Origin: Desulfobotulus alkaliphilus
GTDB taxonomy: Bacteria; Desulfobacterota; Desulfobacteria; Desulfobacterales; ASO4-4
Assembly (NCBI RefSeq): GCF_007830435.1
Contig: NZ_VLLC01000020.1
Span: forward strand, 1 to 64,000
Direction: 5' to 3'
DNA: 64,000 nt
Positions 3,358-64,000 of this stretch are shown here, piece by piece. The notes beneath the pieces are model-generated. The model worked only from the letters and a program-made list of their open reading frames with translations, searched no databases and was not told the origin of the DNA. Each line of letters starts with the position of its first letter. Positions within the stretch are counted from its first letter, which is position 1. A program made the position numbers and the translations under genes.

Positions 3358-3482
3358 AGACAACTCGCTGAAATTGAAAATATTATAACATCTTATCCCT
3401 GCCTGATTCTGGCCGTCCTCCCGCCATGTTCTTCCCGGCACCACGACCATCAAGGTGTAACAATAAGGTCTTCCGTCAGCAA

Positions 3483-5330
3483 TCAGAGCCTAAGCTCCGT
3501 TTTACCCATCTTTTCCTTGAGAAAGGGAACATAGGCCATGTCTGTCTTTAAGATATGGGTATTAAGCCAGTCTTTGAGAAAATCCATGAGATCCATGGTG
3601 ACCGTCGCCTTTCCGCTCTCAAAATCCTTCTGAATTCCCACAACCCTTGCCACAAGATCCCTGTGAACCTTACTGTGGGACCGGCTTTCCGGGTATCCGT
3701 ATCGGGCAAAAAGCTCTTCCTCATAGGCAAAATGGGTTACGGTGTAGTCCGCAAGCTGCTTAAGAATGCCTCCCAGCTCAGCGGCCCCCTTTTGAAGCCG
3801 CATGGCCTTGTGAAGCAGGTTGATCAGGCGCACAAGTTCTCTGTGCTGGTCATCAATGGTCTTGATGGATGTGGCAAGGCGTGAACGCCATGGCATCAGC
3901 TCCGGTATGTCCGACGCCTTCAGTCCGGAGTGAAGACCTCCGGCCTTCTCTTTATTGGATACCCTGAAAACGGCGATCATTTCCCTGAGATTTGAAGCCA
4001 GAAGATCCAGATCCTTTGCGCTGATGCTCATATGGCTGGACCGGCCGGACATTTCTGCGGCCACCGTATCCACGGTTGCAATGTCCCTTGCAATTTCCGA
4101 TGCCACAAGGGAGCTCTGGGCAACATTCTCATTCACTTCCCGGATACCGATGGAAGCCTGATCAATGTTTTCAGCCACCTCCGATGCCCTTGATGACTGC
4201 TCATCCACAGAAAGAACAATCTCGTGGACTATCTGATCCACCTGGGAAATCACCTGAGAGATGGTTCCTACCTCCTCTACGGTCTCACGGGTGGATGACT
4301 GGATGCCCCCTATCTTCCCACGGATAATGCGGGTGGCATCCGCCGTCTGATCCGCCAGCTTCTTGATTTCTCCGGCAACAACGGCAAAGCCCTTGCCGTA
4401 TTCGCCAGCACGCGCCGCCTCTATGGTGGCATTGAGGGCCAGAAGATTGGTCTGCTCCGCAATTTCCGTTATCAGCTCCGTTACATTGCCAATTTCCTGA
4501 GCCGCTGCACCCAGCGTGCCGACCTTATCGGAAACCACATCCACCTGATTTCTGGCCTGGGTCGATATTTCAAGGGCTTCCCTGCAGTTCCCCGCCACTC
4601 CTGAAATATTGACCTGCATCTGGGCAGCGGCTTCTGCCACCATGGCAATATTGGTGGAAGCTTCCTCGCTGGCCGCAGCAACCGTATGCATACTGGTGTT
4701 CATCTCTTCCGCTGCCGCCGCCACGGAATTGGAACGGCGGTGCAGGTCCGATGCCTCCCCCTCCATTTCAGCAGACACCATGGCAACCTCGGAGGATGCA
4801 GCAGCAATACTCTGGGTTTTTCCTCCAACACTCATGATGATCTCATCGAGGGTGGCCACAAAAAGATCAAACCCCGCCGCAAGGCTGCCGATTTCATCCT
4901 CTCTCACAAGCCCCATTCGAACGGTGAGATCCCGCTCTTTTCCTTTGATGGCCTTGCGAAGGCTGGCATTCAGTTCTCTGACGGGTGTAAGAAAAATACG
5001 ATTGAAAAGAAAGCCCATGGCAAGCATGACAAAGAGCAGGCTGGCTGCAGCAGCAAGAACCATCCGGCCCAGCATCCCGTGGGAAAGGGTATGGGGAATG
5101 GCACGGATATCCTTCTGAAGCCCTTCCAGTACGGCTCTGGTATCCGCATTCACAGAAACGGAATCCATGGCCTGAACCTGCGCTGCCATGGCTTCGGCAA
5201 TGCGGGTGCTGTCATGGATCTGGACACTGCGAAAGGCCCACAGCATAAAAATCAGGGCCAGAATCACCACCAGCAGGAGCGATCCTGCAATTTTAACATC
5301 CAGACTTTTTTTAACCAGCGATGCAACCAT
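3483..5330 (-). CDS. Methyl-accepting chemotaxis protein fused to bacteriohemerythrin
   Basis: The 615-residue chemoreceptor starts [20 protein letters not shown] and has two membrane helices (about 12-30 and 95-120) around a very short periplasmic loop. A HAMP-like linker and the signalling domain follow, with the hairpin tip [22 protein letters not shown] split over the conserved E/T/N positions. The last 130 residues form a hemerythrin domain with the iron ligands in order: DDQHRE, HFAYEEE, HSKVHRD and [10 protein letters not shown]. Hemerythrin tails bind O2 through a di-iron centre, so oxygen-avoidance signalling to CheA/CheW is the likely role. The start at 5330 is preferred over upstream 5393 because of a GAGGCGGG ribosome site and because a TATAAT box lies inside the longer frame. 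Confidence 0.9.
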
Positions 5331-14560: not shown

Positions 14561-17500
14561 ATGCCGAAAAAACCTGAAAAACCCCAAAAGGCTCGCCGCT
14601 ACCCTCCCCTTACAGGGCAGTCACGGGAAGGTCAGCCCCCTGTGAATAGGGATGGGCGGTATAAAGATGCCGCCCGCCGCATCCCAAAGGTCGCCCCTGA
14701 AGACGTGGAAAATCTCTCTCAGGAGGAAGTGCTGCGCCTGCTTCAGGAAGTGCTCATCTATCAGACAGAACTTGAGATGCAAAACGAGGAGCTTCTTGCC
14801 GCGCAGGAAGAAATTGAAAAAAACCGGCGGCGCTACTTCAGCCTCTATGACCTTGCGCCGGTGGGCTACTGCACCCTCAGCGAAAAGGGTCTCATTTCCG
14901 AAGCCAACCTCACCCTCTGCCATATGCTGGGTGTCAGCCGGTCTGACCTTTTAAAAAAACCCCTGATCCGTTTTATTCCGGAAAGAGACTACCCCATCTT
15001 CCATAACATGCTAAAAAAAATGGAAAACGGCCAGAGCCATCAGGAATGCGAGCTGCGCATGGCAAGGCCGGATGGCTCATGGTTTCAGTCAAGGATGGAA
15101 ACAAGCCATGCGCCGGAAAACAAGGAAAAAAATACCCTGCGCATTACCATCAGCGACATCTCCGAATCCAGAGAGCTGGAAAGCAGAATCCGGGAAAGGG
15201 AGGAAATTTTCCGCAGCAGTTTTGAAGACAGCTCTGCCGTCAAACTGCACATTGATCCCGCAACGGGCAGCATCATCAATGCCAATAAGGCAGCCGCCAC
15301 CTTTTACGGCTGGTCCAGAAGCACCCTGCAGACAATGCGCATTCAGGACATCACCCTGCTGGACCAGCCCTTTGCCCGGGAAAGCCTGACCCTTGCAAAA
15401 AACCAGCCCAAGTCACGGCTTTTTTTCCGCCACCGCCTCAGCGACGGCAGCATCCGGGACATGGAGATTTTCAGCAGCCCCCTTACCGTCAATGGCAAAG
15501 AGATCATTCACGCCATCCTCCATGACATCACAGAACAGAAAGAAGCGGAAGAGAAGCTTCGCCAGAGTGAAGAGCTTTACAGAAATCTTTTTGAAACCAT
15601 GGGTCAGGGGGTTGTGTATCAGGATGCCTCCGGCCATATCACCAGTTGCAATCCTGCTGCCATGCAGATACTGGGCCTCAGCCTTGAACAGATGCAGGGC
15701 CGCAGTTCCCTTGATCCCCGCTGGTGCGCCACACGGGAGGACGGATCGGATTTTCCCGGAGAAGAACATCCGGCCATGCTTGCCCTGAAAACGGGAAAAC
15801 CCGTGCGCAGTGTGCTCATGGGGGTTTTTCATCCGGGAAAAAATGAAAAAAGATGGATTCTCATTGATGCCATTCCCAAGTTCCATGACAAGGCTGAACA
15901 GCCCTATGGTGCCTTCACAACCTTCACGGATATCACGGAAAACATCCGGGCAAAGGAAAAAATCGAAGAATACGCCAGACAGATGGCTGAAAAAAACAGG
16001 GAGCTGGATGAGGCCCTGAACAGGGCAGAACAGGCTACCCGTGTAAAGGGCGAGTTTCTGGCCAACATGAGCCATGAAATCCGCACGCCCATCAACGGGG
16101 TCATGGGCATGACGGATCTGCTTCTGGATACGGAGCTTAACCCTGACCAGCGGCGTTTTGCGGAAACCATTAAAAACAGCAGCCGGATTCTCCTCTATCT
16201 CATCAACGATATTCTGGATTTTTCCAAGATTGAGGCAGGCGAACTCCGCATCCAGCCCCTTGCCTTTGACATCCACCGGCACATGGACGATTTTGCAGCA
16301 ACCATGGAAATTCAGGCCCGCCAGAAAGGCCTTGCATTCACCTGTAAGATGGATGAAACCATACCGCAAACACTTTATGGAGACCCGGAAAGGCTGCGGC
16401 AGATCCTCAACAACCTTACGGGCAATGCCATGAAGTTCACGGAGGAAGGTTCCGTTGACATCAAAGTAAACCTTCTCAATGATTCCAGTCATTCCCCCGG
16501 AAAAGAACGGGCCTCCAGCGAAAAAAACACGGATATCTGCCTGCTTTTTTCAATCTCCGATACGGGTATCGGCATTCCCGAAGACAGAACCCATCTGCTT
16601 TTTAAACGGTTTTCCCAGATGGAAACAGCCACCAACCGTCGCTTTGGCGGCACCGGGCTTGGCCTTGCCATCTCCAGCCAGCTCGTTACCCTGCTGGGCG
16701 GAGAAATCGGCGTGAACACCCAAAGGGAAAGGGGCGTTGAATTCTGGTTTACGGCAAGATTCCCCATGGACATATCCCATGCAGAAAAAGAGACGGACAA
16801 GAAAGAAAAAGGGCTGCCTCAGCCCAATGGCAATCCAACCTTTGCCGGACTGCCCCGTTTTACCGGCCATATTCTCCTTGCGGAAGACAATGCCACCAAT
16901 CAGGCCGTGGCCACAGGCATTCTCAAAAAAATGGGGCTTAGGCCTGAGGTGGCGGATAACGGCTTTAAAGCCCTGGAACTTTTGCAGCACACAGCCTATG
17001 ACCTGATTCTCATGGATGTGAACATGCCGGAAATGGATGGCATCGAAACCACCATCCGAATACGTCAGATGGAAATGGAAGCGTCTCTGGAAAGGGGCGG
17101 AAAAACCTGTAGCGGGGTTCCCATTATCGCCATGACCGCCGCAGCCATGGAAAAGGACAGAATACGCTGTATGGAAGCAGGTATGAACGATTATCTCAGC
17201 AAACCCGTCAACCCCCATGAACTGGCGGAGGTTCTTGGAAAATGGCTTCCCCTTCACCCTGCGGATGCGGACGAAAGGATTCTGCCCCATAGGGAGGGGA
17301 AAAAGCCCCTTCCGGCCTTTGACAGGGAAGAACTCCTTGGCAGGGCCATGGACGATGAAGAGCTTGTGAAAAAAATACTGGAGGCGGTACAGGAAAACCT
17401 TCCCTTAAGGGTAAAACGGATCAGGGAGGCCCTGATGGCCGGGGATTATTCTGCCATCCTTGCGGAGGCCCACGCCCTCCATGGCATGGCCCTGAATGCA

Positions 17501-51205: not shown

Positions 51206-54200
51206 TCATTCAGGCTGCCCGCAGCCCGGTCCCTGAATCCTGCTTCTGCCGCCGGGACCGGGAATCACCTGTATGCGGCTGGCCATGCGTTCACGGATAC
51301 TGGAAACATGGGAAATGATACCAATGAGCCTGCCATCCTTATGAAGGGCGGACAGGGTTTCCAGGGCCATATCCAGCGCCTCCTCGTCCAGGGTTCCGAA
51401 ACCCTCGTCCAGAAAAAGGGAATCCACCCGTATATTTCTGCTGGACATACCGGAGAGCCCCAGAGCCAGTGCCAGACTGACAATGAACCGCTCTCCGCCG
51501 GAAAGATTCTTTGTGGACCGGATCTCCCCTGCCTGATAGCTGTCCACCACACAAAGCTCCAGAGGCGAAGCCACATTCCTTGTCAGAAGATAGCGATCCG
51601 TCATTTTTTCCAGTTGCCGGTTGGCATATCCCAGCATGTACTCAAAGGTGAGACCCTGGGCAAAATTACGGAATTTTTTCCCGTCTGCGGAACCGATCAG
51701 AACATGCAGATCACCCCAGCGGCTGCAGATTTTCTTCTGCAGCTCTTCGGCATCCTTTTCCCTCTGATAGGCCTCCTTCTGTTTTGCATGGTCGACGAGG
51801 CGCTGGCCAATGGCACCGGTTTCCTGCTGCAATCGGGTAAGATCCCCCTCCAGACGGGCAATCGCATCCTGAAGTTCCGGAGCAGGGGTCTCTGTCAGGG
51901 CTTTTTCCCGTTCCGCTTCAAGAAGGGCTGTCTTTTCCTTCCTGCGTAAAAGAAGCTCCGTTTCTTCCTTCTGAAGCTTTTCCGCCTCCTGCATCAGGCT
52001 TTTGCGTTCTTCTTCCCCAAGGCAGGCCCCCTGATAATCCTTTTCATCCTGAAAACCCGCATCCGGAAGCTTTGATACAAAATTTCCTTCTGCCTCTGCA
52101 AGGGGACCGGCCCTGAGCCTGCGGGCCTCCTCCAGATCAAAAAGCCGCTGCCGAAGCCCTTCCCGCTGCTGAAAAGCATCCTGCAGGGCCTTGCTCCTGT
52201 CCGCTTTATGTTTTTCTGCCTTCTCAATGCCTTTTAAAATCAATGCTTCCTCGGTATCCGGATTCCGGTCACCAAGGAGTTCCGAGCGTTTTCCGGAAAG
52301 GGCTTCCATCTCTTCTTTCAGGCGAAAAATAGTTTTCTCAGCTTCCTGCTTTTCCCCATCCAGCCGCAGCTTCTCTGCGGCATGGTGTTCCAGCCGCAGA
52401 TCAAGGGTCTGGATTTCTGCCATGAGGGTCTGCCTGTTTTTTTCCCGGGCCATCCACTCCCTTTTACGAAAAACAAGCTCCTGCCGCACCACTTCCAGAG
52501 ATGCCGCTTCCAGAGATGCCGCTTCCGGAGATGCCGCTTCCGGAGAAGAAATCCCATAAAGGGCAAGAACCCCTGCAAGGCCATCAGAGATTTCCCTGTA
52601 CCGGGTATTGATCTCCTGAAGCTCAGCCTGCAGGTGTTTCACCTCAGTCAGTGCGGCTTCCTTAAGATACTTTGCATCCCGCAGGCTGTCACGGCAGTCG
52701 GCTGTTGTCTTCAGCAGTTTTTCAGCATCCTTTTTATCTTTGAGGATTTCCTTTTCAAGGATCTCTGCGGCCCCTACCCTCTCCTGAACACTCTGCTGAA
52801 GCCCCCTGTTTTCCTCCCCCATAAGCGGCAGAACATTTTCCAGTTTTTCGGGAGATTCCTTCCATGCAAGGGCCTCCATGGCCCTTTGGATTTTTTGCTC
52901 CGTCAGCTCCTGATCCCCAAGGGTTTTTCTTTTTTTCAAAACAAGCTGTTCTTTATCCTTGCGCAGCTCAGCTTCCTTCACCCCAAGGGCCATCAGTCTT
53001 TTTTCTACAAGCTTCAAATCCTTACGCAGTTTTTTCAGCTCTTCTTCCGCCGCATCGGGCAGGGGAAGGTTTTCTTTAGCATAGGGATGCTCCACGGAAC
53101 CGCAAAGGGGACAGGGTTTACCGTCCTCAAGCCTTGTCCGGGCTTCCTCCATATCCTGAATTCTTCGCAGAAGAAGCAGCTGCGTTTCCAGCAGACCGGC
53201 TTCCCGCTCTAAAACGGCTTTTTCAGCCTCTGCCTTTTCCATGGAAAGGCCAAGTTCCTTTTCAGCCCTTAAGAGCCCTTCCTCCTGATGCTTTAAATCT
53301 AAAGATTCCTTTTTCAGGGCGGCGGCATCGCTAAAGGACTGGCCCAGGGCATCAAAAAACGCCTGCTTTTCCTTCAGCTCCCAGACCTGATCCCGCCATG
53401 CCCCCAGCTCCTTTTCCTGCAAAAGCTTTTCAAGCTCTGCCTGCTTTTCATCAAGAACGGCCTGCAATGCCAGCGCTTTAGCTTCGGCTTTTTCCAGATC
53501 CTTACTTTTTTTCACCCGGTCTTTTTCCGCAAGAGCTGCTTTCTTCTCCGCCTGATCCACAGCTTTCAAAACAGAAAGGGACTTCCCATGGATATCCTGC
53601 AGGGCATCCAGCCGGGCTTCAATGCCCGTAAGGTCCGTGACAAGGGAAGCATCCGCCGCCTGACGCTTCAGCCAGGCATCCGTCTCATCAAAAAGCCCTG
53701 CGGCCTTCAGCCGTTTTTTTTCATCCTTTTTCTGCTCACCAAGGCAGGCGGCCATTTTTTTTTCCAGCTCTTCCAACGACCTGAGTGCGGCTGTAAAGGG
53801 AGGCCTTTTTTCATCCATCCGGAGATCCAGCTCACGAACCCTGCGAAAAACGGGCTGCTGTTCTGCAAATGAGGTCCGGATCAATCCAAGGGCCTGCTCT
53901 GCCTCTTCCAGCATTTTTTCCGCATCCCTGCAGGCCTTCTCACACAAGGGCATTTCCCCCAGCCGCTGTGCCTGACTCTCCGCATCCCTCTGCTCTTCCC
54001 GCCTAAGGGATGTGAGGGCCGCATACATTCCGGAAAGCTCCAGTGCCAGCATAGCCCGCTTCAGCTTCTTTGCCTCCGGCTCAAAATCCTGCTGCCGGAC
54101 CTCAAGGGCTTCCTTTTCCCCTGCAATGCGAGTCAGTTCTTCTTCAAGAACTGAAAGGCCTTTCAGCCATGCAAAAGCTTCTGTCTTCAGCCTGAAAGCC

Positions 54201-54910
54201 GCCTTCAGATCCTTTTCCAGAAGAAGGTTTTCTTCACGCTTTTTCTCCTGTTCCTGCACCTCTTCACGGCTCATCAGCACAAGATTTTTTAAGCCTGCGG
54301 AAAGTTCTTCCAGCTTTTTTTTCTCCAGAGCCAGACGCCCATGCACCCGCATGGAAATCTCGCCATAAATTCCCGTTCCCGTAATCTGCTCCAGAATTGT
54401 GGAACGGTCATCGGAGCTGGCTTCCAGAAAGGCGGCAAAGGCACCCTGGGCCAGCATCATGGACCGGGTGAAGCGTTTAAAGTCCATGCCCGTGACTTCC
54501 TCCACCCGGAGGGGAACCTCACTCAGGCCCGTCATCACAGAATCGGGCAGATTTTCATCCACAAACTCATGCCTTGCATTCTGCAGTGCGCCATCATGTT
54601 TTCTGCGGGCACGGTGCTGGCTCCAGTGACAGCGGAAAGTCCCTGCTCCGGTTTCAAAGCGCACCTCCGCAGAACAGGTGCCGGTCTGACGGCTCATGAT
54701 TTCATTGGTACTTTTATTCACTTTTTCAAGGCGGGGCGTACAGCCGTAGAGGGCCAGACAGATGGCATCCAGAATGGTACTTTTCCCGGCACCTGTCGGG
54801 CCGGTGATGGCAAAAATACCATCCGCCACAAAGGAAGGATGGGTAAAGTCTATGGACCAGCGGCCCGTCAGGGAATTGAGATTTTCAAAGGAGACCGAAA
54901 GAATTTTCAC
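51206..54910 (-). CDS. sbcC: Exonuclease SbcCD subunit C (Rad50-like ATPase)
   Basis: The 1234-residue SMC-type ATPase has Walker A GPTGAGKST at about 37-45. Two long coiled coils follow, separated by a zinc hook CPLCGSVEHPY near residue 600. The signature NLSGGERFIVSLALALGLS and Walker B VDSLFLDEGFGTLD lie near the C-terminus. With SbcD it cuts hairpins and double-strand ends. The second coiled coil contains a tandem 15-base repeat (52497-52548) encoding repeated P/L-E-A-A-S. The GTG start at 54910 overlaps the sbcD stop by four bases. Confidence 0.95.
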   Translation of the reverse strand: MKILSVSFENLNSLTGRWSIDFTHPSFVADGIFAITGPTGAGKSTILDAICLALYGCTPRLEKVNKSTNEIMSRQTGTCSAEVRFETGAGTFRCHWSQHRARRKHDGALQNARHEFVDENLPDSVMTGLSEVPLRVEEVTGMDFKRFTRSMMLAQGAFAAFLEASSDDRSTILEQITGTGIYGEISMRVHGRLALEKKKLEELSAGLKNLVLMSREEVQEQEKKREENLLLEKDLKAAFRLKTEAFAWLKGLSVLEEELTRIAGEKEALEVRQQDFEPEAKKLKRAMLALELSGMYAALTSLRREEQRDAESQAQRLGEMPLCEKACRDAEKMLEEAEQALGLIRTSFAEQQPVFRRVRELDLRMDEKRPPFTAALRSLEELEKKMAACLGEQKKDEKKRLKAAGLFDETDAWLKRQAADASLVTDLTGIEARLDALQDIHGKSLSVLKAVDQAEKKAALAEKDRVKKSKDLEKAEAKALALQAVLDEKQAELEKLLQEKELGAWRDQVWELKEKQAFFDALGQSFSDAAALKKESLDLKHQEEGLLRAEKELGLSMEKAEAEKAVLEREAGLLETQLLLLRRIQDMEEARTRLEDGKPCPLCGSVEHPYAKENLPLPDAAEEELKKLRKDLKLVEKRLMALGVKEAELRKDKEQLVLKKRKTLGDQELTEQKIQRAMEALAWKESPEKLENVLPLMGEENRGLQQSVQERVGAAEILEKEILKDKKDAEKLLKTTADCRDSLRDAKYLKEAALTEVKHLQAELQEINTRYREISDGLAGVLALYGISSPEAASPEAASLEAASLEVVRQELVFRKREWMAREKNRQTLMAEIQTLDLRLEHHAAEKLRLDGEKQEAEKTIFRLKEEMEALSGKRSELLGDRNPDTEEALILKGIEKAEKHKADRSKALQDAFQQREGLRQRLFDLEEARRLRAGPLAEAEGNFVSKLPDAGFQDEKDYQGACLGEEERKSLMQEAEKLQKEETELLLRRKEKTALLEAEREKALTETPAPELQDAIARLEGDLTRLQQETGAIGQRLVDHAKQKEAYQREKDAEELQKKICSRWGDLHVLIGSADGKKFRNFAQGLTFEYMLGYANRQLEKMTDRYLLTRNVASPLELCVVDSYQAGEIRSTKNLSGGERFIVSLALALGLSGMSSRNIRVDSLFLDEGFGTLDEEALDMALETLSALHKDGRLIGIISHVSSIRERMASRIQVIPGPGGRSRIQGPGCGQPE

Positions 54911-56184
54911 GATACAGGCCTCCCCTCTTCTGCAAGGGCAAAAAGAATCTCCGAGAAGTCCTGCTGCAGGTCTGCCCGCTGATCCTCAGGAATCCCATGG
55001 GCCTCAAGGCAGCGGTCAAAAACCTCCTGCACATCAAGATCGGCAAGGGTTTCCTCTGCCCTTCCCTTCTCCAGAATCTGCTCTGAAATCTGCCTGTTTT
55101 TCACACATAAAATGGACATGGACGACCCTTTCACGGCTTCGTCCAGAGCTTGTCTGAGATCGCCCATGAGCTCTTTACCCGTATATAAAACTTCCAGCCA
55201 GGCATCGGAAGCACCAAGGGAGAGTTCTGCAATGCGGCCTGCAATCCCATCCCAGCCTCCCTGAATTCTTTCCAGCTTCTGAAAAACAGGCACGGGAACC
55301 AGAGAGAGGGCGGGACCAGAATCTCCAAAGGTGACAAGGCAGACACTTTTTTCCCTGCGGGTTTCTCCAAAACCCATGGCCAGAGGCGAGCCGCTGTATC
55401 GCACAAAATCCGATCCTCCCACCTTCTGCGCCGAATGCAGATGCCCCAGAGCCACATAATCCGCAGATTCCGGGAAAATGTCTGCGGATACATGGGCAAG
55501 GCTTCCCACATAGAGATCCCGCACGCCATCCCCTTCAACGCTCTTTCCTCCTGCGGCAAAAAGATGGCCCATCACAATGAGGGGAAAAGCCCTTTCAGGC
55601 TTCTGCGCCTCCGCTGCCAGTAAGCTGCGTTTTTTTTCCGCGAGAACAGACACTTCCGCATAGTGTTTCCGGATACCTGCAAGCAGGCTGGCCTGTTTAT
55701 CATCGGCACTTTCTCCGGCTTCGGAAACCCTCACATCCCTATCCTTAAGAAAGGGAACGGCACAGATGACAGCCGTATCCGGAAAAGCACTTTCCCCGTT
55801 TCCGTCATCCTTTTTTCCCGCATGAAGAATAAGAATTTCATCCTCAGGACTGCCCGTGACCTCCCCCACCACATGCACGTTCAGGGCATGGAGAATTTCA
55901 CGGGGAGCATTGAGAAAGGAGGCAGAATCATGGTTACCGCCCGTCACCACCACATGGCGGCAGCTTCCCTGTGCCATCTCACAGAGAAAACGGTAATACA
56001 GGGCCTGTGCCCGGTGGCTGGGGGTTCTGGTATCAAACACATCACCGCTGATGAGAAGAATATCCACGGCTTCTGCGTGAATAAGCTTGCCAAGCCACAA
56101 AAGAAAAGCCTCAAACTCTTCATAGCGCTGCTGATTGTAAAGGGTGCGGCCAAGGTGCCAGTCTGAGGTGTGTAAAATTTTCAC
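54907..56184 (-). CDS. sbcD: Exonuclease SbcCD subunit D (Mre11-like nuclease)
   Basis: The 425-residue metallophosphoesterase has the ordered di-manganese motifs ILHTSDWHLGRTL, LLISGDVFDTRTPS, VVTGGNHDSASF, VMGHLFAAGG and YVALGHLHSAQ. The start is a GTG at 56184 with AAGGA seven bases away; the frame open to 56304 adds a non-family N-terminus. It is the nuclease partner of SbcC, translationally coupled to it. Length is normal. Confidence 0.95.
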   Translation of the reverse strand: MKILHTSDWHLGRTLYNQQRYEEFEAFLLWLGKLIHAEAVDILLISGDVFDTRTPSHRAQALYYRFLCEMAQGSCRHVVVTGGNHDSASFLNAPREILHALNVHVVGEVTGSPEDEILILHAGKKDDGNGESAFPDTAVICAVPFLKDRDVRVSEAGESADDKQASLLAGIRKHYAEVSVLAEKKRSLLAAEAQKPERAFPLIVMGHLFAAGGKSVEGDGVRDLYVGSLAHVSADIFPESADYVALGHLHSAQKVGGSDFVRYSGSPLAMGFGETRREKSVCLVTFGDSGPALSLVPVPVFQKLERIQGGWDGIAGRIAELSLGASDAWLEVLYTGKELMGDLRQALDEAVKGSSMSILCVKNRQISEQILEKGRAEETLADLDVQEVFDRCLEAHGIPEDQRADLQQDFSEILFALAEEGRPVS

Positions 56185-56523
56185 GCATTGTCCTTTTCTT
56201 TTCTGATAAATCGCCATTTTTTCAAATGAAAGGGTGAGGCGTGAAATGGCGGAGTACGGATATACTAATGAGTTTATAACACACTCGACATTAAGCCAAA
56301 ACATACTGACTGCCTTTTGCTCTAAAAAAAACTGGCAAGAGCTGTTGGCTGGATATCGGAGATAAGGAAAAGGATCAGCATATAAACTGATTAGCCCGAT
56401 CCATTGACAAGCAACTCATTTTTTTAAAAAACTGCCTCAAAAAGAATAGCTGTGTCTAAAATTACCGAAGATAGATTAATTTTGAATCCTGCGCCTTATA
56501 TTTGAGACATATTGCTCATAAAA

Positions 56524-59857: not shown

Positions 59858-62800
59858 TCAACCAGCACTGTTCAGCAGTCCTTCCGCCAGCATCCACCCT
59901 GCCATTTCCCGGATTCTTTCCAAGGGCGGTTTTTCAAAGAAAAGCCCGCATCCCGGTGCATTTTCAGGGTTGACACCCCGCAGAAATACATAGGCCACCC
60001 CACCAAAATCCCGTTCATAATCATAGTCTTTGAGGCGAAAACTCAAATATCGGTCCAGTGCCAGAACATAGAGGTGATACTGAAGGGTATATAGATGAAG
60101 GGCCATTTCCCCTTTCAGATTTTCAGGGCTGTAGGCCCCGTAATCTGCCCCCAGATCATTGGATTTCCAGTCCAGCAGGTAATATTTACCCTGATGGCGG
60201 AACACAAGATCCATCACTCCCCTGAGATACCCGGAACTTCTTGAAAAATACAGTCTTTCAAGCTGGGGAGGCAGATGGTCACAGGCCCCCATGGTAATTT
60301 TCTTTACCCATTTTGAAATGGCATCGGATTCCAGAATGTTTAATGGATAATAAAAATCAAGCTCCCGGAGCTGATCCTTCAGCCCCACATCCTTCAGGCT
60401 GAAACCTTCTTCCCCGAAGGGCATGGCAAGCACCCTTTCCACCATCTCCAGAATGGCTGGCAGCCAGGCCTCGTCATATCCGAAAAGATAGAGACTTTTG
60501 CGGACCTGAGGTTCAAACTGCTGTGTGGCTTGGGTAAAGTCGATGTTTTCAAAAAGATGATGCATGAAGTTTCCGGGCCTTGCCCCTGCTGGGAAAGAAA
60601 AGATGTCACCGCCCGGATCTTCGCTTTTTCTGACAGGCCTTTCGCCACCATCCCTGTCCGCAGGGTTTTCCATGTATTTTCCCGCCACAAGAGAAGAAAA
60701 ACTTGTGATGCGGAAGGGATCGGCAGGCAGATGGGGCGGCGTGCAGCAGACAGGAGAATCTTTGCTTTCGTCCTGATGGGGGAGTTGAAGATGCTGGTCA
60801 TCGGGAAGGGAAAGACAGGCAAGGACACCTTCTTTTGACAGGGCTTCCATATCCTGCTTTACCTGACCGGCACCGGGAATGGCGTCCGCCTCATTGTGCA
60901 AAATCCAGTTACAGGCTCTGCCTTTGGTATTATTGATGGAACCCCAGACCGCATAAACCCTGTGCCGGGCACGGGTCAGGGCCACATAGAGAAGCCGGGC
61001 CTGCTCTGCCATGGCTTCTTTTCTTGTTAAATCCTCTTCACGAGCTTTGTCCGCCTTGCCACCAAAATCCACACAAAGCCGGTTTTCCAGCTCAGGATCG
61101 TGGAAGGCCATGATTTTTTCAGGGTTGCTCTGTCCTAAAACATCCGTAGCACTATGAATGAAGGGACAGAAAACAATGGGATATTCAAGGCCCTTGGAAC
61201 GGTGGACGGTAATCACCCGCACCCGCTGCCCGTCACTTTCAAGGCGCAAGGGAGCTTCCACACGACGGGGGAATGCGGGATTGCCCTGCCGCTCTAACCA
61301 GCGGTAAAGCACTTCCGGTCCCCGTTTTTCATCCACTTCAGCGGAATGGAGAATTTCTGCCAGATGAAGGAGGTTGGTCACCTGCCGCTCTCCGTCTCCT
61401 GTTCCCGCAGCCCGAACCAGCACCCCGCCCTTTTCGTAGAGGTGGGAAAGCATGGGAAAAACCCCTTTCTCCTGCCAGAGGTTCCTGCATTCCATAAAAA
61501 AAGAACTTTCACGGTTGAAAGCGGGTTCATCCCGATTCAGGGCATCAATGGCCTTCATGGAAAAACCCATGATGCCTGTGGCCAGAGCCCGCCTCACTTT
61601 GCCGCTGTTCCATGGATGGAGAATGGCGGCCAGCACGGGTAAAAGCTCTTTGGCTTCAGCACTGTCAAGCACATTGCCATCGGCATGGATAACCGCAGGA
61701 ATGCCTCTGTCCGCAAGGAAGTTTCTTGTCTGGAGGGCTTCCCGGTTACTGCGAACCAGAACGGCCATGTCGCCCGGCTCCACCCCCTTATCACCGATGC
61801 GGATATCCCCTTTTCTTCCACCAGAAAGGAGCCTTACGATTTCATCGGATACGGCTCCAAGGGCCATGGGAACAAGTTTACCCACTTTCATTTTGCTTTC
61901 TGACGATGCAAGCCAGAAGGTGAAGGGCGAGACATTGGCTGGATCGCTAAGGATTTCCCTTGTTTTGGGCGCGGCTTTCACCGGATGGAATTCCATCCCC
62001 TCCAGCACAAAGGCTTTTGGATTTTTTTGAAAAATCAGATTTACAGCCTCAATAAGCTCAGGATCGGAGCGCCAGTTGTAATCCAGCGTATAGCGATTGC
62101 TGCTCTTTTTTGCAGCATCGAGGTAGGCAAAAACATCGGCTCCCCTGAAAGCGTATATGGCCTGCTTGGGATCGCCGATGAGAAGAAGGGGCAGGCCCGC
62201 ACGGGCAAAGACGGCATCAAACACAGCATACTGCACGGGGTCTGTGTCCTGAAACTCATCAATGAGGGCAGCCCCGAAAAGCTCCCGAATACGAAGGCAC
62301 ATGCCGCCATCCCTGTCTTCAAGAACGGCATCCCTTAGCCTGAGAAGAAGATCATCAAAGGTGAGAACCCCAGCTTTTTCTTTAAGCTCGGACTCCCTTA
62401 AGCGTGCGGCCTGAACAAGATTTTTTATAAAAAGGGCGCGGTTTTTAGAATGAACTGAAGGGGCACTTTTTTTTAAAACTATCCAATAATCACAAAGATC
62501 AAAAAACTCATGTTCCGGGCTGGGTTGATTTTTTTTCGTTTCCTTCCTGATATTGGTCATCGTCAGTTTTTTTATGACTTTTTCAGGCAGAGAGCCATGG
62601 CCTGAAATCCAGTTGTCGAGATTCAATAAATCATCGTTAAGGCTATCCAGTTTGAATTTCTTTTGACTACGGCTTAAGGCCTTATCTTCACAAAGAAGGA
62701 TGCGCAGAGAGGCCCCCTCTTCACGCCATATTTTCTTTAGCCTGCTTTCAAGTTCCTGAAGTTCTCCATCAATATCCCTGAAACTTCCTTCAGGTAAAAG

Positions 62801-63388
62801 CTGTAAATCCGGTGCCCCGTAACGCCCGGCCATTTGCATGAGTCGCTCAGGTGTCAGATTCTCCAAAAGCCGGGCGGCTGTTTCCGGTTTCAGGGAAGCC
62901 ACATCCCTGCGCCAGACATCATCGGCTGCATTTTGCCGCAGAAGCCCTGCATCCGTAAGCAGTTCCGCATCAAAACGAAGACCGGATTCAAAGCGGTTTT
63001 CCCGAAGCATACGATAGCAAAAGGAATGGATGGTTCCGATGGCGGCCCGGTCAAAATTGCGGATGGCCGCAAGAATTCTGCGCCTTGCTTCCGGACTCTT
63101 GCCATGGCGTTTGGCCATTTCTCCGGAAAAAGCTTCTTCAAAAGACTTTTCTTCCAGAGCCGCAAGGGTATCCCCAAGCCTTGCATAGATCCGTTCCTTC
63201 AGCTCGCCGCTGGCCGCTTCCGTGAAAGTGACCACAAGAATGCGTTCTACGGGCAGGCCATGCTCAATGACAAGGCGCACAAAAAGACTGGCAATGGTGT
63301 GGGTTTTGCCCGTTCCTGCACTTGCCTCCATGAGCAGGGTGCCTTCAAGGGGGGTGTTCACTGGGTCAAAGGATGGCATGGGGGTCAT
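59858..63388 (-). CDS. recB: RecB-type helicase-nuclease
   Basis: The 1176-residue UvrD-class protein has Walker A ASAGTGKTHT at about 22-31, VVTFTEAASGELKERI (motif Ia), LIDEFQDTDPVQY (motif II), LIGDPKQAIYAFRG (motif III), TLDYNWRSDPELI (motif IV), VITVHRSKGLEYPIV (motif V) and LLYVALTRARHRVY (motif VI). The C-terminal nuclease domain has RGVMDLVF, LLDWKSND and QYHLYVLALDRYL. RecB processes double-strand breaks with RecC and RecD, which are not in the window. Its start overlaps the stop of the upstream DUF4276 gene by four bases. Confidence 0.92.
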   Translation of the reverse strand: MTPMPSFDPVNTPLEGTLLMEASAGTGKTHTIASLFVRLVIEHGLPVERILVVTFTEAASGELKERIYARLGDTLAALEEKSFEEAFSGEMAKRHGKSPEARRRILAAIRNFDRAAIGTIHSFCYRMLRENRFESGLRFDAELLTDAGLLRQNAADDVWRRDVASLKPETAARLLENLTPERLMQMAGRYGAPDLQLLPEGSFRDIDGELQELESRLKKIWREEGASLRILLCEDKALSRSQKKFKLDSLNDDLLNLDNWISGHGSLPEKVIKKLTMTNIRKETKKNQPSPEHEFFDLCDYWIVLKKSAPSVHSKNRALFIKNLVQAARLRESELKEKAGVLTFDDLLLRLRDAVLEDRDGGMCLRIRELFGAALIDEFQDTDPVQYAVFDAVFARAGLPLLLIGDPKQAIYAFRGADVFAYLDAAKKSSNRYTLDYNWRSDPELIEAVNLIFQKNPKAFVLEGMEFHPVKAAPKTREILSDPANVSPFTFWLASSESKMKVGKLVPMALGAVSDEIVRLLSGGRKGDIRIGDKGVEPGDMAVLVRSNREALQTRNFLADRGIPAVIHADGNVLDSAEAKELLPVLAAILHPWNSGKVRRALATGIMGFSMKAIDALNRDEPAFNRESSFFMECRNLWQEKGVFPMLSHLYEKGGVLVRAAGTGDGERQVTNLLHLAEILHSAEVDEKRGPEVLYRWLERQGNPAFPRRVEAPLRLESDGQRVRVITVHRSKGLEYPIVFCPFIHSATDVLGQSNPEKIMAFHDPELENRLCVDFGGKADKAREEDLTRKEAMAEQARLLYVALTRARHRVYAVWGSINNTKGRACNWILHNEADAIPGAGQVKQDMEALSKEGVLACLSLPDDQHLQLPHQDESKDSPVCCTPPHLPADPFRITSFSSLVAGKYMENPADRDGGERPVRKSEDPGGDIFSFPAGARPGNFMHHLFENIDFTQATQQFEPQVRKSLYLFGYDEAWLPAILEMVERVLAMPFGEEGFSLKDVGLKDQLRELDFYYPLNILESDAISKWVKKITMGACDHLPPQLERLYFSRSSGYLRGVMDLVFRHQGKYYLLDWKSNDLGADYGAYSPENLKGEMALHLYTLQYHLYVLALDRYLSFRLKDYDYERDFGGVAYVFLRGVNPENAPGCGLFFEKPPLERIREMAGWMLAEGLLNSAG

Positions 63389-64000
63389 GGTTTTGTCTTT
63401 CTCAATATATCAAGGAATCTTGAGGCCCATGGGGAGGCCTTTGCTATTGTGTTTGGATCAATCAGAGCAAGAATCTTGAAAGAATGCTCTCCCTTGCCGT
63501 ATTTTGATTTGGTTTTGCATTTTTTTGTTGCATCGGAAAGGGCTTGCAGAATTGTTTCAGGAGAGATGGATTCAATGGGCTTTTCTTCAGATGGCAAGGC
63601 TTTCGGGTTGAAACCCTGACCATAGAATTTCTGAAGAAAAACCCTGTCTGTTAAAAACCATGATTCCATACATTGAACCATGAGATGGCAATCCGTGTTT
63701 TTGGCTTTAACAGGTTTTTGCCACTGATCTTTTTTATTGGAATGAAGATGTGCCCAAGGTTCCCAGTTTTCAGGATGGCCTTTTTGGTGCTGGCTTGAGA
63801 CAGGCCCTTCGCTGTCCACAAGCAGCATGGCTTCTTCCCCCCTGTGTATAGCTGTTGTGAACGCATCCAGCGCATCTCTGCGGCTTCCGCAAGCGACTAT
63901 CCTCGGCATGGAGCCAGCCAGCCCCGCTTTTTTCAGGAAATCGGAAAATCCCTTTCTGCAGGCTGTACGCAGAAGGTTGGTGTCCCCTCCGCCTTCCACG
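63385..64000 (-). CDS. DUF4276 (Toprim-like) protein, 5' end beyond the window
   Basis: About 204 residues are seen; the gene runs off the right edge. It opens with EGGGDTNLLRTACRKGFSDFL, then MPRIVACGSRRDALDAF, MLLVDSEGPV, HLMVQCMESWFLTD and LIDPNTIAKASPWASRFL. These are the marks of the DUF4276 family (PF14103). The Glu of EGGGD and the acidic DSE are placed like Toprim metal ligands. In many genomes this family sits beside AAA-type ATPases of suspected defence function; whether one lies upstream cannot be seen. It overlaps recB by four bases, so it is coupled to it. The true start is probably a few residues before the edge. Confidence 0.78.
   Translation of the reverse strand, partial: VEGGGDTNLLRTACRKGFSDFLKKAGLAGSMPRIVACGSRRDALDAFTTAIHRGEEAMLLVDSEGPVSSQHQKGHPENWEPWAHLHSNKKDQWQKPVKAKNTDCHLMVQCMESWFLTDRVFLQKFYGQGFNPKALPSEEKPIESISPETILQALSDATKKCKTKSKYGKGEHSFKILALIDPNTIAKASPWASRFLDILRKTKP

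Follow-up and report, generated by a model that had tools for sequence, protein, structure and literature searches.

An OLD-like ATPase-Toprim dyad between recC and recB in two species of Desulfobotulus

In the draft genome of Desulfobotulus alkaliphilus (G000), a gene of the DUF4276 family that overlaps recB was found to form, with an ATPase gene, a dyad of the kind listed by PADLOC as HEC-01 (Hma-embedded candidate 01). Together with a small orphan open reading frame, ORF143, the dyad fills the gap from the recC stop codon to the recB start codon. Our favoured account, held with moderate confidence, is that an OLD-like defence dyad and ORF143 were inserted here once and that the dyad is likely to be a back-up effector. 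The dyad itself is an already known candidate; by our literature search, the new part is the embedding of an OLD-type dyad in recCB, which was not found in print.

Results

Gene order at the recCB locus

The window, the whole stretch of DNA that was analysed, comprises 64,000 bases and is identical to C21:1-64000, contig C21 being 72,083 bases long in a draft genome of 4.0 Mb and 95 contigs. Coordinates above 64000 are in contig C21 numbering and continue that of the window. The gene order on the minus strand is recC, ORF143, ATPase, DUF4276 and recB. The host gene of the insertion, recB (59858-63388, full length, 1176 aa), scored 852.7 bits against TIGR00609 (cut-off 696.05). The DUF4276 gene (208 aa) covers 63385-64000 of the window and starts with an ATG at contig position 64011. 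A GTG start at 63999 was an artefact of the window edge; the true ATG (MKLYVEGGG) is located 11 bases past the edge and two bases past the TAG of the ATPase gene, and an alternative ATG is present at 64050, within the ATPase gene. Beyond the edge follow the ATPase gene (64014-65177, 387 aa), ORF143 (65217-65648, 143 aa) and a full-length recC (65789-69028), which scored 836.5 bits against its equivalog model (cut-off 582.9). recD was found on a separate contig, C10, with 480.8 bits against an equivalog cut-off of 310.15; the genome holds recB, recC and recD equivalogs, each above its cut-off.

An earlier note on this DNA had described a coupling of DUF4276 to recB by an ATGA overlap. This was confirmed: the four bases at 63385-63388 contain the TGA of DUF4276 and the ATG of recB. 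The overlap is not a matter of chance, for the same junction recurs in another species of the genus. The end of recC at 65789-65792, on the far side of the insert, is ATGA too. It had also been noted that DUF4276 proteins are usually found with AAA ATPases, and that the gene past the edge could decide whether ATPase, Toprim-like effector and RecB form a new three-part system. An ATPase of the OLD/SMC type was indeed located immediately upstream of DUF4276, but an ordinary recC was there as well, with recD elsewhere in the genome.

Some neighbouring genes were recorded. Immediately upstream of recC, a PD-(D/E)XK_4 gene (69376-70590, minus strand; L003 9376-10590) had a weak match to the PADLOC candidate PDC-S26 (E 2.4e-13). 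From this gene to the end of C21, two small similar-looking genes and a transposase fragment were identified by reading. Downstream of recB, at a distance of 3.5 kb, two overlapping frames on the minus strand (window 51206-56304) were read by eye as SbcC and SbcD, which would place two systems for processing double-strand ends close together.

The DUF4276 protein

The DUF4276 protein matched PF14103 with an E-value of 2e-21 for the frame inside the window (77.5 bits, cut-off 30.2) and of 5e-22 in a further search, and it matched PADLOC HEC-01B (PDLC04201) with an E-value of 6e-77 over residues 1-202. No Pfam family other than PF14103 was matched up to E 0.1, and sequence comparison with solved structures gave no convincing match (best E 0.084). 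A structure model based on an alignment of 70 sequences had a mean pLDDT of 96.7 and a pTM of 0.91. Foldseek alone gave no match to the model at E 0.001 or below, the best being 6p74, OLD of Thermus scotoductus, with an E-value of 0.29. The 1000 best Foldseek chains were re-aligned; the top seven were then all Toprim entries of OLD, AriB and GajA, with Z-scores from 9.4 to 6.8 over 134-168 residues. OLD of Burkholderia and Xanthomonas gave 9.4, 8.9 and 8.8, Thermus OLD 8.5, AriB of the PARIS system 7.5 over 162 residues, and GajA of Gabija 7.3 and 6.8. The eighth entry was an archaeal protein of unknown function at 5.6, and the remainder did not exceed 3.8. The Toprim likeness suggested earlier was thus borne out by the fold comparison.

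The nuclease motif of Toprim domains consists of a Glu plus an acidic motif of the DxD type. In DUF4276 the Glu is present and the acidic motif has the form DxE instead of DxD. All three residues are conserved: E6 in 68 of the 70 rows of the alignment (the other two being gaps), D66 in all 70 and E68 in 69. As modelled, the protein folds like the Toprim domains of OLD nucleases and carries a conserved acidic triad; it is regarded as a putative nuclease.

The ATPase and ORF143

The ATPase matched AAA_21 (E 2e-39) and, over residues 1-387, PADLOC HEC-01A (PDLC04177; E 3.9e-181). Its Walker A, LSDGT and Walker B motifs are intact, and the corresponding alignment columns are conserved. The model of the ATPase (49 sequences, pLDDT 88.3) aligned with SMC/Rad50 heads and with the retron protein PtuA at Z-scores of 18-22. 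Given the Toprim fold of DUF4276 and the SMC/Rad50/PtuA-type fold of the ATPase, the two are a split OLD-type pair encoded by separate genes, as in PARIS.

Searches of Pfam, PADLOC and NCBIfam with ORF143 found nothing, and its PHROG matches were weak (E 0.029). Relatives were present in nine of 96 genomes of the order, including G000 and the second species, G002; the other seven were distant and found in different settings. ORF143 was rejected as a core third part, as its relatives elsewhere in the order stand apart from HEC-01.

Insertion between recC and recB

Two sister species were available for comparison. In G001, recC overlaps recB directly (TAATG), which makes this locus an empty site. 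In G002, the ATPase, DUF4276 and ORF143 are located between recC and recB at the same place as in G000, and in each of the two genomes 2,400 bases separate the stop of recC from the recB start codon. The insert is flanked by the same four bases, recC ending with and recB beginning with ATGA, and both genes are whole; it is now DUF4276, in the stead of recC, whose stop overlaps the recB start. The four-base borders are either a target duplication or a clean join. As the junction of G001 is TAATG and the ancestral junction is unseen, the two are not separable.

RecB and RecC of G000 and G002 are 84-86% identical, and those of either species are 76-78% identical to the proteins of G001. A single gain on the common branch of G000 and G002 is the simplest account of this relationship, and the identical borders and the recurrence of the arrangement in only one sister species also fit most simply with a single event. 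It would thus appear from these sequences that a known kind of dyad, with ORF143, was inserted once into recCB in the ancestor of the two species. That the arrangement is an artefact of assembly or binning, as might be feared in a draft genome of 95 contigs, is scarcely credible, considering that the same order and borders were found in a second genome (84-94% protein identity) and that a third has a clean empty site.

The ATPase tree grouped G000 and G002 with support of 100/100 on a branch of 0.56 within a mixed clade, and no donor of the dyad was singled out by it. There was no sign of a close phage-borne source either: relatives turned up once in a scan of a viral collection, in four phage records and in 240 plasmid records, always below 60% identity.

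Terminator and promoter signals were considered. A 14-pair hairpin between recC and the insert was favoured in G000 (z -2.86) and not in G002 (z -0.22), and no terminator is claimed. Promoter-like sites at the insert did not exceed the level of shuffled sequence.

Selection, composition and a broken copy

Nei-Gojobori counts on gene pairs from G000 and G002 gave dN/dS values of 0.087 for the ATPase, 0.146 for DUF4276, 0.39 for ORF143, 0.177 for recC and 0.122 for recB. Both dyad genes are under purifying selection between the two species. The dS values of the insert (0.15-0.37) were lower than those of recC (0.51) and recB (0.71), which could be due to transfer between the species after their split or to different codon use. 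The G+C content in G000 was 0.33 for ORF143, 0.47 for the dyad and 0.51 for recC and recB.

In G002 the DUF4276 gene (L040 9039-9665) has an in-frame TAA at the codon for Tyr171, a residue invariant in all 70 relatives, and the last 38 residues are lost. Judging from this reading frame, the recCB dyad of G002 is probably devoid of a working effector, with its ATPase intact. The internal TAA indicates that the dyad is not indispensable in G002.

Distribution of the dyad

A survey of 389 genomes of the order with HEC-01B gave 14 matches in 13 genomes. The neighbourhoods of 12 further loci were examined, and the gene adjoined recB in G000 and G002 only. A GTDB scan with the ATPase, which may omit G000 itself, returned 550 relatives, of which 80 loci were kept; 73 of these had both dyad genes by the blast criteria. 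Neither recB nor recC was found beside the dyad in any of the 80 (flanks of up to 8 kb, several of them ending at contig ends; blastp at 1e-5 and 1e-10). BREX core genes were found within 8 kb in at least 23 of the 80 loci and type I restriction genes in at least two, both counts being lower bounds obtained with reference proteins named by PADLOC or, for L073 and L202, by reading. Neighbouring genes on the same strand, 100 aa or longer and no more than 60 nt away, were present on both sides in 25 of the 73 loci, upstream only in 12, downstream only in five and on neither side in 31. In several BREX loci (L093, L095, L102, L130 and L133) the stop of DUF4276 and the gene that follows share four bases, as do DUF4276 and recB here. 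The dyad is normally solitary or located within BREX and similar operons.

PF14103, which detects DUF4276 of any kind, gave 83 matches in 59 of 395 genomes of the phylum. The positions of recB were compared in these 59 genomes, 43 of which had a recB match at E 1e-30. G000, the only one of the two species among the matches of this draw, was the only genome in which DUF4276 adjoined recB. The nearest other cases were an AddA-like gene in G641, about 5.5 kb off and on the opposite strand in a locus read as BREX-like, and a recB in G046 at 21 kb from DUF4276. The recurrence of DUF4276-recB pairs raised in the earlier note was therefore limited to one sister species, with identical borders, and no other genome of the order and phylum surveys had such a pair.

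Three further ATPase-DUF4276 pairs were found in G000, on contigs C8, C4 and C6 (L199, L200 and L201). They belong to other HEC-01 subfamilies and none is beside rec genes. The C4 pair is near an hsdM-like gene and, by reading, the C6 pair is near amino-acid biosynthesis genes.

About 60 bases covering the end of DUF4276 and the start of recB, with a likeness of 58 bp, match contig C49 of G000 at 85% (E 2e-9). The match, in the C49 region 15365-16083 (L004 about 3366-4084), is located directly before a gene called HmaB by PADLOC and has the same ATGA. The simplest reading of this one short match is that a HEC-01 pair may once have been present there, of which the tail alone is left. This HmaB was absent from G001 and G002, and is thus found in one of the three genomes of the genus. 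Upstream of the remnant, a toxin-antitoxin pair of ParDE/RelE-like type was identified by reading, as was a helicase beyond it. The HmaB gene runs into transposase-like sequence that also ends C21.

The recC-recB gap in other genera

Of 136 relatives, 122 had recC, 120 had recB and 117 had both. The two genes were on the same contig and strand, in the same order and within 10 kb in 61 cases, 33 of which were tight (at most 400 bases from match to match). Eighteen wider intervals were read, including one of 14 kb outside the 61; nine further wide gaps, seven of them with partial recC matches, were left out. None of the 18 contained the dyad. Their contents were FliK-like and FlhB-tail genes, a phosphoribosyltransferase, an FHA protein and patatin-like proteins, with one example of each type searched and the others assigned by reading. 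The FliK-like gene and the FlhB-tail gene form a recurrent pairing directly before recB in L205, L207, L209 and L210, all from other genera. The presence of unrelated genes in other genera indicates that the recC-recB gap is permissive. The dyad is the only defence-type content seen in the gap among the intervals read.

On a rival reading the dyad is a passenger, which came to rest at this permissive site because an insertion at a stop/start overlap leaves both genes whole, and it would work, if at all, with no link to RecBCD. We consider this explanation plausible, although we would not call it probable. It agrees with the unrelated genes in the same gap of other genera, and with E. coli, in which the gap is taken up by ptrA, a presumed horizontal acquisition that contains the ribosome-binding site of recB (PMC12342828). 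It agrees also with ORF143, which at 33% G+C came along and has no HEC-01 link elsewhere, and with the stop codon in the DUF4276 gene of G002. On the other hand, a defence dyad was found in only two of the 20 wider gaps read, those of G000 and G002, and purifying selection acts on both dyad genes.

Discussion

Comparison with known systems

Both genes of the dyad match full-length HEC-01 models, are two bases apart and have the order of that candidate, ATPase and then DUF4276. HEC-01 takes its name from the Hma locus; here the neighbours are recC and recB, and the dyad is embedded in no defence system.

In PARIS, the OLD-type ATPase (AriA) and the Toprim protein (AriB) are likewise encoded by separate genes, and the AriB Toprim was among the best fold matches. 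AriB belongs to family DUF4435. The effector here, of 208 aa, matches PF14103 alone in Pfam, and it has no known trigger.

Gabija and class 1 OLD resemble the locus in their Toprim and ATPase folds and by the SF1 helicase that adjoins them here. In Gabija and in OLD classes 1-3 the ATPase and the Toprim domain are in one polypeptide, as in GajA, whereas here they are encoded by two genes. A true three-part complex, in which HEC-01A and HEC-01B would use RecB or RecBC as a helicase as GajA uses GajB, is very unlikely in our judgement. The Gabija parts list (OLD-type ATPase, Toprim and UvrD-like helicase), the ATGA coupling and the fact that RecB also matches GajB models, though more weakly (97.3 bits at best), speak for it. 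However, with 852.7 bits against the recB equivalog model, RecB is an ordinary recB product well above the cut-off, and no recB or recC was found in the flanks of the 80 GTDB loci or by the three other copies in G000. The new obligate system of ATPase, Toprim and RecB envisaged in the earlier note is not upheld by these counts; ATPase and DUF4276 form a cassette that is also found with no rec genes beside it.

We know of no case of an OLD-, Gabija- or Ec48-type gene inside a recBCD operon. Likewise, no report of an OLD-type dyad in that position was found in titles and abstract openings of the open-licence literature, from which many journals are missing, and DUF4276 was not mentioned by name in that literature. 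Hma-embedded candidates are listed in archaeal and Pseudomonas surveys (PMC12988326, PMC10855318). The TOPRIM-linked OLD-ABC dyads described from BREX and related loci are of the same dyad type (PMC12839542); the host operon differs, being a core repair operon here. In E. coli, the order recC-ptrA-recB-recD likewise has a foreign gene between recC and recB, and translation of recB is apparently coupled to ptrA (PMC12342828), which encodes a periplasmic protease, as opposed to the defence dyad found here.

Possible function

ATPase-Toprim pairs are at work in PARIS, OLD and Gabija, and activation of AriB by AriA leads to cleavage of host tRNA (PMC12839542). OLD-Toprim dyads in BREX-like operons have been proposed to be back-up suicidal effectors (PMC12839542). 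By analogy, the ATGA coupling at recCB would tie production of the dyad to that of RecB, and the ATPase HEC-01A would keep the Toprim nuclease HEC-01B inactive until a phage trigger appears. Once released, the nuclease would halt the infected cell. At recCB the dyad would most likely serve as a back-up effector against phages that block RecBCD or other defences of the host. In favour of this account, the dyad is often packed closely into other operons, as the 25 of 73 loci with close same-strand genes on either side and the 23 of 80 with BREX core genes show. Against this preferred explanation stands the fact that the arrangement represents one event in one genus, with no independent recurrence found in the order, GTDB and phylum surveys. 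The broken DUF4276 gene of G002, the permissive nature of the site and the weak Foldseek result (best E 0.29) also count against it.

The clean insertion in two species suggests that the dyad may watch over RecBCD, and published work makes a functional link possible. Dependence on RecBCD has been published for Gabija and class 1 OLD (PMC12407980, PMC10568477): recBC mutants are killed by P2 Old (PMC10568477), and a recB mutant neither tolerates nor survives high expression of Gabija (PMC12407980). Inhibition of RecBCD activates OLD and retron Ec48 (PMC12904381), and Ec48 is not tolerated without recB (PMC9836394). Since a block of RecBCD is reported to bring OLD, Gabija and Ec48 into action, the most interesting reading is that HEC-01 is a guard in the operon of what it guards, sensing loss or block of RecBC. 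Translation of recB would depend on that of DUF4276, fixing the proportion of enzyme to guard; a phage that disables RecBCD would free the Toprim effector, and an unbalanced operon would be punished. We rate this reading as rather unlikely. The site of the dyad makes RecBCD attractive as the signal, but the dyad occurs elsewhere too, and a single insertion is weak evidence of function.

The back-up effector account remains our preference, and the genus offers natural material for its study: a control with an empty site (G001) and a version with a broken effector (G002) for an OLD-like dyad in recCB. If the dyad reads the state of RecBC, the locus would be a compact model in which to study how systems of this kind detect the state of a repair enzyme of the host, and the idea of defence genes embedded in defence operons would extend to a core repair operon.
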